A stretch of DNA of 64,000 nt from Syncephalastrum monosporum B8922 (Eukaryota > Mucoromycota > Mucoromycetes > Mucorales > Syncephalastraceae), in assembly GCA_000697355.1 (NCBI GenBank), contig JNEN01001227.1:310001-374000 (forward strand), in the 5' to 3' direction. The notes under the pieces are model-generated. The model ran no database searches. It was not told the DNA's origin and saw nothing but the letters and a program-made list of their open reading frames with translations. Shown in pieces: positions 45,941 through 59,239 of the stretch. The first letter of the stretch is position 1, and every line of letters begins with the position of its first letter. A program made the translations under genes and the position numbers.

Positions 45941-47203
45941 TCAAAAGCCCCAGACCTAAAAACAAAAATGATTTACGTAAGCAAGGAGTGAAAAACGCAG
46001 ATTGGGCAGGCATACCTTGAGTGAATTATCCCAACTACCGGTGCAAAGAGCCATACCGTCATTCGAGATGCCGAGGCACGAAACACGGTTCTCGTGGCCG
46101 CTCAACGTACCGACGCGTTCGTTTCGTAGAGTATCCCAGACTTGGCAATTGAAGTCATCGTAGCCACCAAAGAGCAGACGGCCGGACCGTGAAAAAGCAA
46201 CGGAAGTGACACCGCACAAAATGTTGTCATCGGAATAGACATTGAGTTCGCGGTCTGCTCGGAGATCAAATAGGCGGCAGCTCGCATCGTCTGAGCCTGT
46301 ACCAAACGCCTGACCGCTGGGGAAGAACTCCACCGAATTAATATCGGACTCGTGGCCGGTAAACGTCTGCACGCATTTCCGCCGATCTCGGATGTCCCAC
46401 ACTTTGGTCGTATTGTCGCAAGCCCCTGAGACAAACAGATCGGGATTGGCTACCGAAATTGAAAGGCTATATATACGTATGTGTTTAGTTTTTTCGTTCA
46501 AATTTCATTGTTCCTTAATTCTTCATAATTTTTGGGGTCGTACCACATGACATCGCCGGTGTGTTCCTGGAATTTATCCAACTTGACGCCCGCGTCAACG
46601 TCCCAAAGGACACACGTCGTGTCGCCACTCGAAGTAAGAATCTGGCGCTCATTCACGAACCGGCAGCAGCTCAGGTAGCCGGTGTGTCCAACGAGTTCTC
46701 TTGCTGGCCGCGTGGGACCATCACGTGCCTTGAGATTAAAGATCGAGCAGACATTGTCGAGACCGCCCGACGCTACAAAGTTCGACGAAGGCGAATGCGC
46801 GCAGGTCATGACCCACGACGATCTAAGTGGAATCGCGCAAATCTTGTGTGTCGTGTACGCTTCCCAGATAAGAAGCCGTCCGTCCTGCGAGGCCGTCACG
46901 AGCTGGGGTCGGTCGCGTGCCCAGTGCAGAGCATACACTTTCGCTAAATGACCTTTTAGGGTACGCCGTATGCGAAGGTTCACCTTGGGTAAAGGCTTGA
47001 TTTGTTTCCGTGCCAACTCGCTCACTATTATATTTAATTATTAGGGTGAACACACCGCCTGACTTATTTCATACTACATCACAAGTATTGTAATTCTACG
47101 TACGCTCGCTGTCGAAGAGTGCTTCTCGTCGTTGTTTGACCCTTTCTTTGAGTTGCTCGGCTTCTCGACGAGCAGCAGCAATGCGCTCGTTGTAGTCATC
47201 CAT
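45941..47203 (-). CDS. Heterotrimeric G-protein beta subunit
   Basis: Four exons (minus): 47104..47203, 46544..47024, 46016..46466, 45941..45955; 348 residues. An N-terminal helix ([20 protein letters not shown]), for coiled-coil pairing with G-gamma, is followed by seven WD40 blades: [11 protein letters not shown]...[35 protein letters not shown]...[57 protein letters not shown] and [12 protein letters not shown]...NSLKVW. The final exon is 15 nt and adds only VWGF plus the stop. It signals downstream of receptors, probably including pheromone/trisporoid or nutrient responses (inference). Its stop is about 240 bp from the convergent SGF29 stop. Confidence 0.96.
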
Positions 47204-49241: not shown

Positions 49242-50705
49242 TTATACTGCCGCTGCTGTTGCTTTACCGGTAGAGTCATTACTGCCGTCAGAGATGGTCC
49301 TATAATGACAAAACATGCACATGCAAGCGACAGAGTGAGCCATATCCTCTTCCCTCTTGATCTTCTTCCTTAAATTCTCATACCTGCTCTTTTGGCTACC
49401 AGCTTCAATAGAAGGCGTGGCATCCTCTCCCTCGCGATGGTCGATACGACTTGAGATTGCACTATAATCTTTATGTTCTGAATAGATTTCGACTTGGCCA
49501 CCCCCTGCCTTGTGCTTGATATTGTCCTTGCTTCCGACTTTGCTCTTCGCATCATACTCCTTCACCTCATGGTAGATCTTAACATCGCCGCCTCCGGGTT
49601 TGTGTTTGATGTTGTCTTTGCTGCCAACTTTGCTCTTCGCGTTATACTCTTTCACCTCATTATAGATCTTAACATCGCCCCCGCCTGGCTTGTGCTTGAT
49701 GTTGTCTTTGCTTCCCACTTTGCTCTTGGCATCGAACACTTTGGGTTCGTGGTAGATTTTGACGTCGCCGCCACCCGGTTTGTGTTTGATATTATCTTTG
49801 CTGCCGACTTTGCTCTTGGCATTGAACACCTTCGGCTCGTGATAGATCTTGACGTCACCGCCTCCCGGCTTGTGTTTGATATTATCGAGTGAGCCTATCT
49901 TGGACTTCACGTTGGAGTAATCGCGGCGGCGAGAGGGCAGGCGCTTTGTACGGGACAGGGAGCTGTTACCTATGTAGATTTTGAGCAGCCGGTTATTCAA
50001 ACAGTTCAATTTACATAATTGTCAGATGCGCACGTACCACTGCTGCTACCGGACGCATTACTCTCCGTAGGGCTCATGATCTGCTTGTCACCACCACCGG
50101 GCTTGTGTTTGATATTATCGAGCGAACCAATCTTGCTCTTGACATGGCTGTAGTCACGACGCCGCGTTGTGAGACTTTTTGTGCGTGATAAATTGCTGCT
50201 GTTGCCTGCGGAATATTATGAGTCTGCGGTACATTGGCGAACGGGCGCACAACGTACCACTACTATCAGAAGCATGACTGGCGGTAGGGCTCATTAATGA
50301 TTTTTGCCCGCCCCCAGGCTTGTGCTTGATATTGTCCAGCGAGCCCACCTTGGATTTAATGTGACTGAAATCAGGCAGGCGTGCACCGATGCTTCTGGGA
50401 CGCGACTGGCTGCTCGTGTCTATGCATTCAAGCTGAAATTGAGTCTTGCTGCGTATGCGCCTATGCATATCGATGGTATTACCACTACTCGTATCGCTTC
50501 CGATGGCAGAAAGAGTTTTTCCACCACCTGGCGTGTGTTTGATATTGTCCAAAGAGCCTATTTTGCTCTTGATGTGGTCGAAGGAAGGCAAAGGTTGGGT
50601 CGGGATGCGTTTGGTGGCGCTAGCGGATGATCGGCTGGTGGAGCTGTGGCTTCTGCTTCGCCGCGCGGCGGAAGCGGGCCTGATGTTTTCGTCTTGTTGC
50701 GCCAT
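49242..50705 (-). CDS. Tau/MAP2/MAP4-type microtubule-binding repeat protein (8 repeats)
   Basis: Exons (minus) 50258..50705, 50038..50205, 49384..49969, 49242..49299; 419 residues. Eight copies of the tubulin-binding signature occur at about residues 44-62, 114-133, 170-188, 225-243, 255-273, 285-303, 315-333 and 345-363. Early copies read KIGSLDNIKHKPGGG, later ones KVGSKDNIKHKPGGG, and the last has KAGGG. Human tau repeats read KVGSxDNxxHxPGGG, so the match covers the whole core. The flanks are Ser/Arg/Lys-rich and disordered, as in tau's projection and proline-rich parts. The last five copies form a strict 30-residue tandem. An 84-nt intron (49300-49383) is a multiple of three without stops, so retention would add 28 Cys-containing residues. 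The predicted role is microtubule binding and stabilisation. Confidence 0.85.
49498..49911 (-). repeat. 90-bp coding tandem array, five units
   Basis: Units start roughly every 90 bp and encode repeats 4-8 of the tau-like protein. The spacer alternates between DVKIYHEPKVF and DVKIY[NH]EVKEY, so units 4-5 resemble each other and units 6-7 resemble each other, pointing to stepwise duplication. Confidence 0.9.
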
Positions 50706-51756: not shown

Positions 51757-54700
51757 TTAGGACTGATAAGCACTCAGGGCACTCGATGCACGCTCGAGCT
51801 CCCAAAGTTGGCGCAACTCGTCCATGCTGCCTGAGCTGTATCGTTGCTGGGCCATCTTGGCCCGTGACGCACGCGTCGGCGTCTGCGACAGTCGATCAAA
51901 CACGTTGCCAGCGCTCGGCGTGCGCTCCATCAGCGTCGAAGCGCTGGGAACAGGACCGAGCGACGGGCGCTTGGGTGCCGGCTGTCGTTGCTGCTGGTGC
52001 GACATGCTCATTATCGGTTCATATTCAGCGTTCGACATCTGCTGCGGCTGCTGCTGTTGCTGCTGCTGGTAGTGGTGCATCATGAGCTCACGGAGCGAGG
52101 CCCGACGGCGTGAGGAGCTTTGGTTAGGCAGGGGCTGCTGAAGGGAGTAAGCGCGTTTGCGAAGCGAGGCCTGGCTCTGCTGGGACGAGGTCTCGGACTG
52201 GACAGACGAGCGTCTAAAATGGCTGCTACGGATGGACGATGTGGATGACTCACGGTCGTTTGTGTAGCGTGAAAAGTCGGCTGGGTTCACGACCGTGAAT
52301 GGAATAGGCGATTCGGACCCAGGGACGCGCTGTTGCCACGACAGGCGGCGCTGGATCATGTTGAGGAACCGGTCCGGAGAGGGCGTGGCCTCGCGCGTTG
52401 TGTGCCGCGCTTTGTCGGTGAGCGAGACAGGCGGCTTCAGACCACTGCCAGGCATGGTGGGCGGCCGGGCGTGGTTAGTATAGGTCGGCGAAGCGAGCGG
52501 CGAGGGTGGTGGCAACACCGGCTCTTCGTTGCTCCCTGCACTGCCGCTGCCGACAAAGGAGACAATGGAGGAGCGCCGCGAGTCGCTGTAGTCGACGCCA
52601 GGCTCAGGCGTGTTGATCACCCCACGCAGACCGTCCTCGTAGATCTTGTCAAAAATGGTATTGCCGCTGTTGATATACTCCTCGATCTTGACATCGATCG
52701 CGCTATCCTCGTCCGTGTTTTTATGGCTCTTCTCTTCGAGGCGCCGGATGCGACGCTCGTTCTCGACCGTGGTGGTGATGGCAGCCCGCTTCATAACTAC
52801 GAGTGTGCGCCGCAGATCCATAACCGTTTTCTCGAGGTTCTGCATCGTGACCTGGCGGTTGCACTCGCTCATACGGAGGTTCATGATATCATCCACGAGC
52901 GCTTCGGCAATGCTCTTGCACTCGTCGTATTCAAGTGTCTTGAGGAGACGCAGCGTGACGTCGTAGGCTGCTTCGGGAGCCGCGGTCGGGGGCACGCTGA
53001 ACTGCTCTTCGAGCGCATCCATGTCGGCCCAGCCATCCTGGTGCTGCGCTTCGTGGACGATGTCATCCGCAAACGTCACGCGCTTTTCCACGCGCTGTTG
53101 CTGCAGCTGTGCCTGCTCGAGGGGCGCATCTTCAGCAACAATCTCGCCTGCCGCTTCTGACTGCAGTGCACGCACGCGCGCAGAAAGGTACGAGATCTCA
53201 GCCGAGATGAGCTCAATGCGCTCGTCCGTAAACTCGAGGGCCATTGTATCCATCGGCTGACCAGTCGCGTCAGCCGACTCCTTCTCGGCGAGGTAAATAT
53301 GGCGACGTTCCTCCATCAGTTCCAGCTTCTCGGCAGCGAGCTTCTCGCGACGGAATAGGAGCTGCTCCATCTCAACAACGGCTTGCTTGCCCTGAATGTA
53401 CTGGTAGAGCGCTTTATCAAGCAGCTCCTTCTTCCGCTCAGCACGGACCTGGACTGGGATCGGGTTCGGGCGTCGGCGGCGCATGGGGCGACGGCCAGCG
53501 CCCTTGCGCGCGATCAAAGCAAAGCTGCCGCCGACAATGTGGGATACCTTGCCCAACAGACGCTCGTCGAGAACGCCGCCCTCGCGAACGGCCTTTTTAA
53601 GCACGCTAATCATCTGCTTGAGCTGGTTATTGTTGACAAGCACTTCTTCGTCGCGGCGCTTCAGCATAATGCTTTGCTGCTGGTGTTCCTTTTCGAGACG
53701 GCGGCGAGCGATCTTGGCCTCAGCATTAGCGCGCTGCAGCTGCTGGATCTTGCGCTCTTTCACGGTCATTTGTTCGCGGACGCGTTCGGCCTCAACTTTC
53801 ATGCGCTTAATCATGCGCTTCTTCTCCACTTTGAGAGTCTCGACATTGACACGAAGAGAGCGCAGAAGCGTCTCGTTCTGATTACGGGTGGCTTGCATGG
53901 TCATGGTCGTGCGCGAGTACTTGCTCTTGAGCTCCTGGATCTCGGACAGCAGGCCCTTCATCTTACTCTCATAGGCCTGACGTATCTCGATCAACTGCTG
54001 CTTGTCGCGCACTTGGGTTGTCATTTCCGACTTGCTCGACATGCGCGCCTTGGTTCGACTGACGGCGGTATCCTGTTCATGCTGTAGCTCAACAAGCTGT
54101 CTTTGGAGGCGTAATATCTTTTCGTCAAACTTGCGTCGCATAAACGCATACTCGGTCTCGGATTTCTCAAGGTGCGAAACGAGCTCTTCCTTCACACGGA
54201 TATCGGATTGGATCTGATGGAGCATGCGGACCATCTGAGGGTTGTACTTTTCTTGTTGACCATGAGAAGGCGTCTCGACGCGCGCACTGCCGGATCCGTC
54301 CGAATCAATCGATTCGGCGACACGCTGCACCGTGGCCGGGTCATCCCATGAAGGCACAGCGAGTGTCTCAATTTCTTCGAGCATGTCACTGCTCATCAAG
54401 TCGTCGTTTTCGACGGGTGAACGTGCGGGTGTGAAGTTGCCTTCGTCCGAAAGTGTGCGCTGCATGTCTTCTTTGTACAGGTCCTTTTCTTGCTCCTCAA
54501 ACATCTTGAGCTGTTCTTCCCAGTCCTTGGCCGTGTCATCCAAGGGCTAGCAAAAAGAATAAGTACCCTAAAAATACAAACACAAACGATGAAGTCTGTC
54601 TTTTGTTACCTTGATTAAGTCGAGAACTTGCATACCACGCTGAATTTCTTCGCGGGCCTTGGCAATACTGCTCTTGACTTCTTCACGGACGGTCTCGTCC

Positions 54701-56854
54701 TCGACGTCAGTAAGCTGGGTCTTGAGACTGGTACTCTGAGAAATGACAGGGCGACGCGTCGTGCGCTTACTGCGTGTGGTATGCATAGAGCGCGATGTGA
54801 CGCTCGAAGTCGGGGTCATGCGGACACGGCGAGTATTACGCTTGCGGCGCGTGCTAAAAGATGTGCTTTTTTCTGAAACACCTTTAAAGGAAACCGATGC
54901 ATGGGAGCGTTGCATCGAGGAACTCGCCATCATCATGGCGTGCATGGCTGAGGGCTGTGTGCTCTCAAGGAACTGCAGCCGATCACGCGTATCCTGCAGC
55001 TCATTGTTTAGGTCCTGAATAGTCCTCTGATACTGAGAAATAATGGGATGCGTGGTCATTCGGTCCTCTCCACTGTGTCCGCTGCCATCATTCATGAACT
55101 CGCCGAGTTCACGTTCCATGAGGAGCGTGTCGCGCTCGCTTGTCACTTGGATCATGCTGGTTGACATGTCCTGGATGCGGTCACGGAGACGCGCCACTTC
55201 GGCCTTCAGCGCACGGTTCTCCTCACGAGCGAAGGGGCCGTCCCCGCCGGCCGAGCCATCAGCGCGCATCGAGGCAATCTCCATGCGCAAACGCGCTACT
55301 TGGGCGCGCAGCTGGCTGACCTCAATAGAGTTCCCTGCGAAATCTTGGTTGATCGTAACGCGGTTCTTGATGTTGCGGGCACGGTTCGCATATTTCAAGG
55401 TGTTGAGGGTCTCCATAAAATTGGAATCGGCGGGCGAGACACAGGCGAGCATGAGCGTCTGGCTGTTACCGCCCAGTGAGTCCTGCAGCAGGCGTGTCAG
55501 TTTCGAGTCGCGGTAGGGCACATGGGTCGCACGTCGTGTTTCGTCACCGAGTGCAGAGATGACGTTGCCAAGCGCAAGGAGACCGGAATTGATCGCGATA
55601 CCTTCTTTGGCACGATCGCCTTGGGCGTTTGTGCGCTTGAGCTGAAACCCAAAAAAAGTTAATTCATATGCAGATCTATATAAAAAAAGGGCGTATGCGC
55701 TCGTACCCGCTCAGAGCCAGCCAAGTCGACGAAATGGAACTTGCTCGTGATGGATTTCATCGCGCCTTCCGTATCGGGATCGCTTTTCTGCTGTTTCAGG
55801 ATGACAGAGAAGATGGCGTGTGAACGTGAGGAGACAGTATTCATGTCGGTGGAACCCGTGGTTCGACAGAGCGAGCCTTTGGCCAAAAAGCTGTGGATGT
55901 GTAAATAATGATGTGCTGCATGCAGACCGAATAGGCTGAAGATTCTACCCAATACTTTACCCTAACAGTTCTTCCGGACTAGCGCAAGGTTCTTCACGGA
56001 CTCCGCTCCAGTAGATGCCTCCCGTGATGTCCTCGCGGATGGTCACCTCCACAGCCGGAGCAGCCCCGATGGCAACGCCCTTCTTTTTCTGGGCGGTGTA
56101 AGGGTTCAAGAGATCGACAAGCTCTTCGTTGTAGAGTTCCAGAAAGGACACACACACTTCGTATTTAAACTGTTCATCTTCCGATGCTTGTCGCTGGAGC
56201 GTGTCGAAAAGCTGACGGATACACCGCGGCACAATGCCTACAAGCAAATGGGGTGATAATATTTTTGCAGTGAGTTCGAAGCCAGACTGATAGGATTGTG
56301 CATGCGCGGACCTTCATCCTCGGGGCGAGTGCCGCTGTTGCCGTTGTGCAAACTTGTGCCCATACTGTAAGTTTTGCCCGATCCTGTTTGTCTATATTTC
56401 GCAAAGACCTGATGAGTTATTTTTCTGTCTCTCGCATTGATTCAATATATCATATCCTACCCATAGGCTAAGATCGTTGCATTGAATCTGAATTAAAAAA
56501 TCATTCAGTGACACGTCCAGGAGCATTGTATAAAATAATTAAATCTGCTTCGTCGTTACCCATCGATGAACTTTTCCAGCAAGGGCGTGGCAGCAGCCCT
56601 GTAAAGGTCCTCCTGATCTTTCTTGTCATCAAATACGTAGTCGTATGTGTACGATTTGTCAGTTCCGATTAGAATCTGAGGTTCATTAGGCACATAAGAC
56701 AAGCATTCTGTGCAATTCGAAAGTTGCTCTTTCTGTGTCAGTGGTCTCACTCGAAGACCCACTCTGATGAATGAACATGATGAGCGGGCTGTAGAAGTGG
56801 TAAAGCAGAGAATAGGGAATAAGAAGACAAGTACCTCACGGCTGTGGAAGTCAT
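51757..56854 (-). CDS. Kinesin-4 family motor (chromokinesin KIF4/KIF21-like)
   Basis: Eight exons (minus): 56835..56854, 56560..56763, 56461..56487, 56312..56391, 55961..56237, 55707..55890, 54610..55641, 51757..54546; 1,537 residues. The motor starts at the N-terminus ([15 protein letters not shown]). It carries the P-loop [12 protein letters not shown] near residue 85, switch [13 protein letters not shown], switch [20 protein letters not shown] and [18 protein letters not shown]. The neck [20 protein letters not shown] is the kinesin-4 hallmark. Long coiled coils follow (to about residue 1,250), then a Ser-rich disordered tail with a poly-Gln patch. Kinesin-4 motors slow microtubule growth and move along microtubules or chromosomes. 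The first exon is 20 nt and the third 27 nt. One donor (56311) is GTCC. Confidence 0.93.
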
Positions 56855-59239
56855 GAAAGTGCACTGCAGAGAAAAGAGAAGGATGCGCCAGTTCAGGCCA
56901 AAACGTCAGGCACTTGCTTTCTCTGCAAGTTGCGTTTTCGCTGGTATTACACGGCCCAAAAAAAACAAAGTTGGCCCGGGCAGCGTAACACAAGTCGTTA
57001 CTACACAACGCAACTAAATCACGAGAATGAGGGAGGCATGAAATACAAAAAGAGAAGGGTTGACTAACGAGCACCTCATGAAACAATCGGCTTGTTCTTA
57101 TGTATGTTGTCGTAATATGACATGTCTTCCTCTTTTTTTTTCCGTCGCAGAATGGTGAAAATGTCCGTTCCCTGGGCGACCGGAACACGGCCCCGTTGGT
57201 CCCCTTTCATTTTTCGCCCTTTTGATCGGCACCAACGTCTGTTCCCCATCCCCACGTAACACCAACATCACCATGGATAACCTTACGATCCTCTCTAAAG
57301 TCGTTACTATCGTGCGTTTCTTTATTTCTGTTATTTCGTGTTTCCAATGTGAGGTTCCATCTTCCTTGTTGCTTTTTATATGGTACCCTTCAGCTGACAT
57401 TATATTAACAAAAGTACGGATCTCGCGTGGCCTGCCCCGTGGCAGATGTTCTCGATCACGATAATTTTAGGAAAATGACAGCAAAACTCAGCGTGGGCCG
57501 GCCATGCCTTATCATCCAGTACGCACGCAGAGTTTTCCCTTCCTTTTTTTTTTCATCTGCGTCGTACGAAACCATCAGATGCTAAAAATGGTTGCACCTG
57601 TCCATTATTCGCCTACTGCTCTCAGGGGTCGTGTACACACCCAAGCCGAATGTACTACAAGTGTGATATATATCCCCGTTTAAAATCGCTCTCAAAGGAG
57701 CTTTGTTGGAGGCAAGTATTCTGCTCGAGATTTGAGGACGCTGCACGTTCCGCATCCTTAAGAGGCTTGTTTGCATCATATCAGATGACGAACATAAACA
57801 AAAAGCGTTTCGCCATATGGCTCATACTTCGGCGCCACACCCCACGGGACGGGCACAATCAAGAAGACGATAATAAGGCCGATGCAGAAGAATGCCTGCT
57901 CGGACCGGAAGAAGACACCCACCATCAAATGCTTTTACCATTTCGCAAAGCGTTGTGACATTTTACTTCACCCTGTGGTGTCTAACCATGGAAAGGCACC
58001 CGAGTGCGTCGAAAATGATAGATGGATCCCAGATACGCGACTTTCCAGGTACTCACTCTCCCACAGCACACAAGGCTGTAACGGTAAAAAGTCATTTCCC
58101 TGGCATTTAAAGATGTGTCTTCCAGTAACCAATTGACCTCTACAAAAAGTATCTTGAGGCCGTTATTGTCAATCATATAACTATGTTTTAATGATGTTTG
58201 TGGCAGTACGTTTCGTTGCCGTCATCAGCGACGAACACATTTTTATCACTTCATAAGCAACAATGAGCCAAGTGCTCCTATAATATACATATCCTGAAGT
58301 CAAGTTACTCTTTAACGAAGAAACTCTGTATATATTGGGTGGGTGGATGGGTTATTACGGACTGTAATCGCACAGTCTAACGACTTTGTTTCGCATCAGC
58401 GATAGTCAAGATTCACTAAATGATCTGCGCGAACCATTGGTTTCGAAAGGTGTTGTATCGAGTAATATCTGCAGTAGGATATCTACAGTTGTACTGTATA
58501 CAGTCGAATGATCGCACGGGCATTCCAAATATGGGCAGAGACTAAGAAGCACAGATGCTGTTGTCTCCCTATTTCAGTGTCCTTAATGCTAAATTTTCTG
58601 TTGACATTGAAAATCGCGTAGAAAGTGTCTGTTGCTCCTCTCTTTCATTTTCCCCGTCTCTTCTTCTATTATTGCTCCTGATCTCTTCATTGATCACAAC
58701 TCATCACCGGATCCCCACCTTGAAGCCGCACTGTCAACTGTAGTGGCCTCAAGTCACACGCTCCTGTATACTGCATACGTACGCATTTTTTTATACATCC
58801 TTTTATTTATTGACACACAGTTCCTATGTGTTATAGAAAAGCCCTACTAGGACTCGTACAGAAATGTTCTTGTCACCAAGCGCACTACGCTCATACTATT
58901 GATCTTCAGGTACATAAATTATTTGATGCATCACATTTCAGCATATATTTTACACCTCTTGTTCAATCATTACATGAATTAACCCCTGACGGCTTTCAGC
59001 AGGTTTTTATTCGGTGTGACTATATATACGATTTTGCGGACCACACAGAATTCAAAAGTCAAGTAGAGTGGGAGTATAGAGAGAGAGAAGTAAGACAAAG
59101 ATATAGCATGTTGTAGCTAAACCTGAGAACTGATATTCAATTGTGTTGACAGATTAGCACCCGTGCTATTGAAACAAACTGCTGGTCTCCAAAACTTAGT
59201 CAGTCCGTCATCTCCAACTATTCAGTTATCCGCGAAAGC
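56855..59239. other. Gene-poor region upstream of kinesin-4
   Basis: The first few hundred bases form the kinesin promoter/leader. Further right I found only short frames. One ending near 59116 on the plus strand (EFKSQVEWEYREREVRQRY) has protein-like composition and could be an upstream exon of the 59240-59797 candidate. Confidence 0.4.

Follow-up and report, generated by a model that had tools for sequence, protein, structure and literature searches.

The gene, its introns and its repeats

The window, i.e., the whole stretch of DNA that was analysed (64,000 nucleotides), contains a tau-type gene on the minus strand, whose ATG begins at 50705 and whose stop codon ends at 49242. Its exons, introns and repeat units are given below in the order of transcription.

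49242..50705, minus strand: tau-type MAP gene, from start to stop codon, four exons
50483..50705, minus strand: exon 1, with repeat 1
50520..50609, minus strand: repeat 1 unit, core GSLDNIKHTPGGG
50420..50482, minus strand: intron 1, 63 nt, phase 1, GT..AG
50258..50419, minus strand: exon 2, with repeat 2
50307..50396, minus strand: repeat 2 unit, core GSLDNIKHKPGGG
50206..50257, minus strand: intron 2, 52 nt, phase 1, GT..AG
50038..50205, minus strand: exon 3, with repeat 3
50090..50179, minus strand: repeat 3 unit, core GSLDNIKHKPGGG
49970..50037, minus strand: intron 3, 68 nt, phase 1, GT..AG
49242..49969, minus strand: exon 4, coding for repeats 4-8 and for the C-terminal tail; 84 nt within it form an optional GT..AG stretch
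49857..49946, minus strand: repeat 4 unit, core GSLDNIKHKPGGG
49767..49856, minus strand: repeat 5, 30-residue tandem unit starting with DVKIYHE, core GSKDNIKHKPGGG
49677..49766, minus strand: repeat 6, 30-residue tandem unit starting with DVKIYHE
49587..49676, minus strand: repeat 7, 30-residue tandem unit starting with DVKIYNE
49497..49586, minus strand: repeat 8, 30-residue tandem unit, AGGG replacing PGGG at its end

Splicing over the three introns leads to a protein of 426 residues. The 84-nt GT..AG stretch of exon 4 may be a fourth intron; it is in frame and its removal leads to a protein of 398 residues. The length of 419 residues given in the preliminary description is thus not reproduced by either form. 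All three cysteines of the 426-residue form are encoded in this optional stretch. It should be noted that intron 1 (50420-50482, minus strand), with 63 nt, i.e., a multiple of three, is stop-free in frame: when retained, it gives a longer intact protein. The candidate 84-nt intron is likewise stop-free, so its retention also keeps the protein intact.

The protein carries eight repeats. Repeats 1-4 are R1-like units, the starts of their cores being spaced by 50, 55 and 55 residues, and repeats 5-8 are 30-residue units placed head to tail. Eight near-identical cores of the form K[VI]GSxDNIKHxPGGG had been announced in the preliminary description. The count of eight stands and seven of the cores match this pattern exactly, PGGG included; the eighth, KVGSKDNIKHKAGGG, does not, since it ends with AGGG. 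When the residues of the 426-residue protein are shuffled 20,000 times, the core pattern never occurs. Repeats 1, 2 and 3 each have a separate exon, bordered in phase 1, and this arrangement suggests that they arose by duplication of exons.

The next gene upstream (51757-57188, minus strand, about 1.05 kb off) encodes a kinesin: it has a KIF21A-like segment and, among PDB sequences, the start of its motor is nearest to KIF4. That a kinesin gene adjoins the gene of a microtubule-associated protein may be due to chance. The tau-type gene is followed downstream, at 45956-47025 (minus strand), by an ordinary gene, seen as a pair of neighbouring open frames that strongly match the G protein beta WD40 family. 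An aspartyl protease is also found in the window; its best PDB match is polyporopepsin, then come animal and other enzymes, rhizopuspepsin being lower, and it is of little help for placing the source. The search of Rfam across the 64-kb window gives no match.

Membership of the tau/MAP2/MAP4 repeat family

The profile of the tubulin-binding repeat family, named as a check in the preliminary description, is matched significantly. In Pfam, the 398-residue form matches PF00418 as sole family, in eight stretches, with 332.9 bits and E = 9.6e-102 (cut-off 27 bits). When the genome is searched in six frames with PF00418 (27,528,251 bases, 198 contigs), at least eight matches are obtained (8 candidates, 8 scored), all within the tau-type gene; each of the eight is individually above the curated cut-off (44 to 54.7 bits), and the number of second copies of the gene found by this search is zero. 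The same search matches none of 14 control genomes, of which the 13 named ones are prokaryotes.

In the PDB, 51 distinct sequences are matched at E <= 0.001 and 49 of them are tau chains. The remaining matches are 5mp3 ("Microtubule-associated protein") and ELYS, one each. The best tau match is 6cvn, a chain of tau R2 copies (E = 5.7e-34), followed by a match with E = 1e-32. Of three alignments displayed, two have a match that extends upstream of tau R1. On the basis of its sequence, this fungal protein belongs to the tau/MAP2/MAP4 repeat family; the claim that a fungal protein carries repeats of this type is borne out by the Pfam and PDB matches together.

The 16-residue cores of the fungal protein have 12-16 residues in common with one another (mean 14.4), versus 10-13 for tau R1-R4 among themselves. 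The repeats are therefore more uniform than those of tau, as had been proposed. Between the fungal cores and tau R1-R4, 10-14 residues are common.

Residues 208-338, encoded in exon 4, match the 2408-residue ELYS chain 7vci_T (E = 1.2e-9) in two stretches, at ELYS residues 1855-1985 approximately. This match hints that a nucleoporin, too, may carry repeats of the tau type. The exon 4 piece has no match in NCBIfam. In prokaryote genomes, 12 pattern stretches were found for it and none was confirmed; in viral contigs, none was found. Both of these searches are negative controls, made in a poor place for a fungal gene.

As regards the literature, Sundermann et al. 2016 (PMC4815063, in the part available) list the fungus Rhizopus delemar among the non-vertebrate MAPT/MAP2/MAP4 homologues, with a distinct architecture. 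The preliminary description had presented a metazoan family as a novelty in a fungus, and this has to be abandoned in view of that phylogeny. By its repeats, the eight-repeat protein is a remarkable addition to the family, but it is not the first member outside animals because a fungal member has been in print since 2016. The open-access literature searched yielded no study devoted to a tau-type protein of a fungus, and PMC4815063 alone names a fungal member there, in one clause. In the accessible portions of the other papers, fungi are mentioned once, regarding intron retention (PMC8909800), fungal tau is absent (PMC13406575), or fungi are unmentioned (PMC6759874). The portions seen of PMC10032563 and PMC13224075 treat tubulin contacts and S262.

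Age, origin and disorder of the array

Repeats 5-8 have 25-29 of 30 residues identical. Their pooled pS is 0.81 versus a pN of 0.059; for the eight cores, the pooled values are 0.77 and 0.126, respectively. Where two of the repeats 5-8 have the same residue (158 comparisons), they also share the codon in 87 cases; shuffling the codons 2,000 times gives 68.0 such cases on average (sd 6.3). For the eight cores, the corresponding values are 187 of 403 and 161.4 (sd 11.0). Synonymous divergence among the repeats is near saturation, yet incomplete because the use of the same codon exceeds that in the shuffles. Since the synonymous sites are near saturation, the uniformity of the repeats is due to selection and not to fresh duplication or recent gene conversion, i.e., the repeats are old and their uniformity is kept by purifying selection on the protein. 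Recent tandem duplication, considered as a source of this uniformity, is ruled out by the pS value over repeats 5-8.

For the origin of the gene, one reading, to which about an even chance is given, is that the tau/MAP family already existed in the animal-fungus ancestor and disappeared from most fungi, Mucorales-type fungi having kept it as a long-selected eight-repeat form. Horizontal transfer from an animal into fungi, with a later expansion to eight repeats, would be consistent with two observations: the fungal cores are as near to human tau as the repeats of tau are to one another, and the published roadmap roots the order of the family duplications in metazoan homologues (PMC4815063, same part). 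Nevertheless, the introns of 52-68 nt, the position deep inside a fungal contig and the near-saturated synonymous divergence suggest age in the lineage, and a Rhizopus delemar homologue has already been published. Transfer is thus unlikely, a very old one being still compatible with these data. In the case of convergence, an unrelated disordered fungal protein would have gained a tau-like docking motif. Docking motifs of this kind, short and basic, may evolve several times; however, eight stretches fit a 31-position profile, and up to 14 of the 16 core residues are those of tau. The alignment also extends beyond the core, to the segment preceding tau R1 and to the linker GGGQVE[IV]xSExxD, which aligns after tau R3. 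Convergence had been left as an option in the preliminary description; in view of the eight profile matches and of the alignment outside the core, it is very unlikely indeed. As to animal DNA contaminating the assembly, its probability is practically negligible. The tau-type gene is localized deep inside a contig of 801,691 bases with other fungal-type genes, which makes contamination very unlikely, and its introns are short. CotH has 26 matches in the genome, some of them being pieces of one gene, and one match is on the contig of the tau-type gene. Mucorales and their relatives have many CotH genes; three of the 14 control genomes, each of them a prokaryote, are also matched by this search, and CotH is thus not specific to fungi. 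On the same contig, the nearest PDB sequences of a lipase segment are 6qpp and 6qpr, then 4tgl, 1tgl, 5tgl and 3tgl, all clearly non-identical. The four tgl entries are the Rhizomucor miehei lipase, and the segment, from its sequence neighbours, points to Mucorales; the source is best regarded as a fungus of the Mucorales type. Contamination is for practical purposes ruled out by this long contig with its CotH and lipase matches, which also support the fungal source of the gene that the preliminary description had assumed.

Another alternative concerns the structure of the array, which could be an ordered beta structure serving as scaffold or fibre and not a microtubule binder. With a calculated pI of 9.9-10.0, the protein is basic, and the charge-hydropathy rule places it on the disordered side. 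These two results support the basic, disordered chain proposed earlier, whereas the single-sequence model of exon 4 points the other way. Indeed, AlphaFold2 run on exon 4 without alignment predicts regular short strands over repeats 4-8, with a best mean pLDDT of 73.3. The five models disagree, however (mean pLDDT 73.3, 62.4, 58.7, 58.2 and 36.7), and near-perfect repeats are known to give rise to confident but artefactual beta stacks in modelling; the strand model of exon 4 is probably such an artefact. Moreover, the conserved residues are those touching tubulin in tau. An ordered array of this kind, which the best model would predict, is thus quite improbable.

Probable microtubule binding and comparison with known members

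The contacts of tau R1 with alpha-tubulin are described as follows in the part available of PMC6692637: (i) S258 and S262 contact E434; (ii) K259 contacts E420, E423 and D424; (iii) I260 contacts I265, V435 and Y262; (iv) K267 contacts the acidic tail. The equivalents of tau S258, K259, S262, N265, K267 and H268 are kept in all eight fungal repeats. The equivalent of I260 is Ile in three repeats and Val in five. The KxGS motif is present in the eight repeats. On the side of the partner, three alpha-tubulin genes were examined, out of twelve tubulin loci fetched from the genome, and Y262, I265, E420, E423, D424, E434 and V435 (numbering by alignment) are present in all three. The docking surface of alpha-tubulin is conserved in most eukaryotes and the protein is highly conserved generally. 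The contact residues of alpha-tubulin are thus a weak support for binding, because alpha-tubulin is conserved anyway.

Phosphorylation of S262 by MARK lowers the affinity of tau, according to the part seen of PMC13224075. Five KA1-domain matches are found in the genome. The KA1 domain occurs in MARK/Kin1 kinases.

The protein is very probably a lattice-binding microtubule stabiliser of the tau/MAP2/MAP4 family, which would be released by phosphorylation of its KxGS motifs; binding, stabilisation and control by kinases are here what we infer. In the proposed mechanism, the basic disordered chain would run lengthwise on the outer face of a microtubule protofilament. Each SK[IV]GSxDNIKH core would dock on the region of the C-terminal helix of alpha-tubulin, and PGGG plus the inter-repeat segment would lead to the next tubulin dimer. 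Units spaced by 50-55 residues (repeats 1-4) run into tight units of 30 residues (repeats 4-8). One molecule could thereby hold on to several successive dimers, and hyphal microtubules could be stabilised or bundled. KA1-type, i.e., MARK/Kin1-like, kinases may phosphorylate the eight KxGS serines and lead to release. Several features would count against a microtubule binder: the unit of 30 residues versus 31, the change at K274 in seven of eight repeats, the altered hexapeptides and the unmatched R'. With regard to the latter (the downstream pseudo-repeat), an 87-residue query from repeat 8 onward was used; among the best five of 52 alignments, those to tau end by residue 48 and none of them covers R'.

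Tau is studied mainly as a vertebrate neuronal protein. A relative with eight repeats, from a filamentous fungus, provides an outgroup for the origin of tau, and it separates microtubule function from neuronal function. The array is one where the tubulin-contact residues stayed while the synonymous sites drifted near saturation. If the ancestral reading is true, it would be a natural idealised array for defining what one tau repeat needs to bind a tubulin dimer. The hexapeptides VQIVYK and VQIINK are PHF6 and PHF6*, named for paired helical filaments (PMC6692637, same part). A natural variant without these hexapeptides and without cysteines in its repeats allows a comparison of binding versus aggregation. 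The value of the protein is tempered by the mention of a fungal member in 2016.

When compared with human tau (MAPT), the fungal protein is alike in several respects: (i) the core SKxGSxxNIxHxPGGG; (ii) an extended inter-repeat segment and a basic chain; (iii) a KxGS serine in every repeat; (iv) an R1-like unit ahead of tandem units. It differs by its number of repeats (eight versus four in human tau) and by its tandem period (30 residues versus 31). Unlike human tau, it has repeats 1-3 set 50-55 residues apart, one per exon, and its repeats are without cysteine. The tau hexapeptides VQIINK/VQIVYK are replaced by VKIYHE/VKIYNE. At the position of tau K274, Lys is found in one fungal repeat only and Asp or Gln in the seven others.

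Two other members can be considered, both from the part available of PMC4815063. According to this description, the Rhizopus delemar tau-type MAP likewise comes from a fungus and has tubulin-binding repeats resembling those of tau; its architecture is called distinct there. The MAPT of the Antarctic rockcod has 7 tubulin-binding repeats, i.e., its number of repeats is expanded, as in the fungal protein. However, the rockcod expansion consists of four tandem copies of the cysteine-bearing second repeat, whereas the fungal protein has two classes of repeats, both without cysteine.
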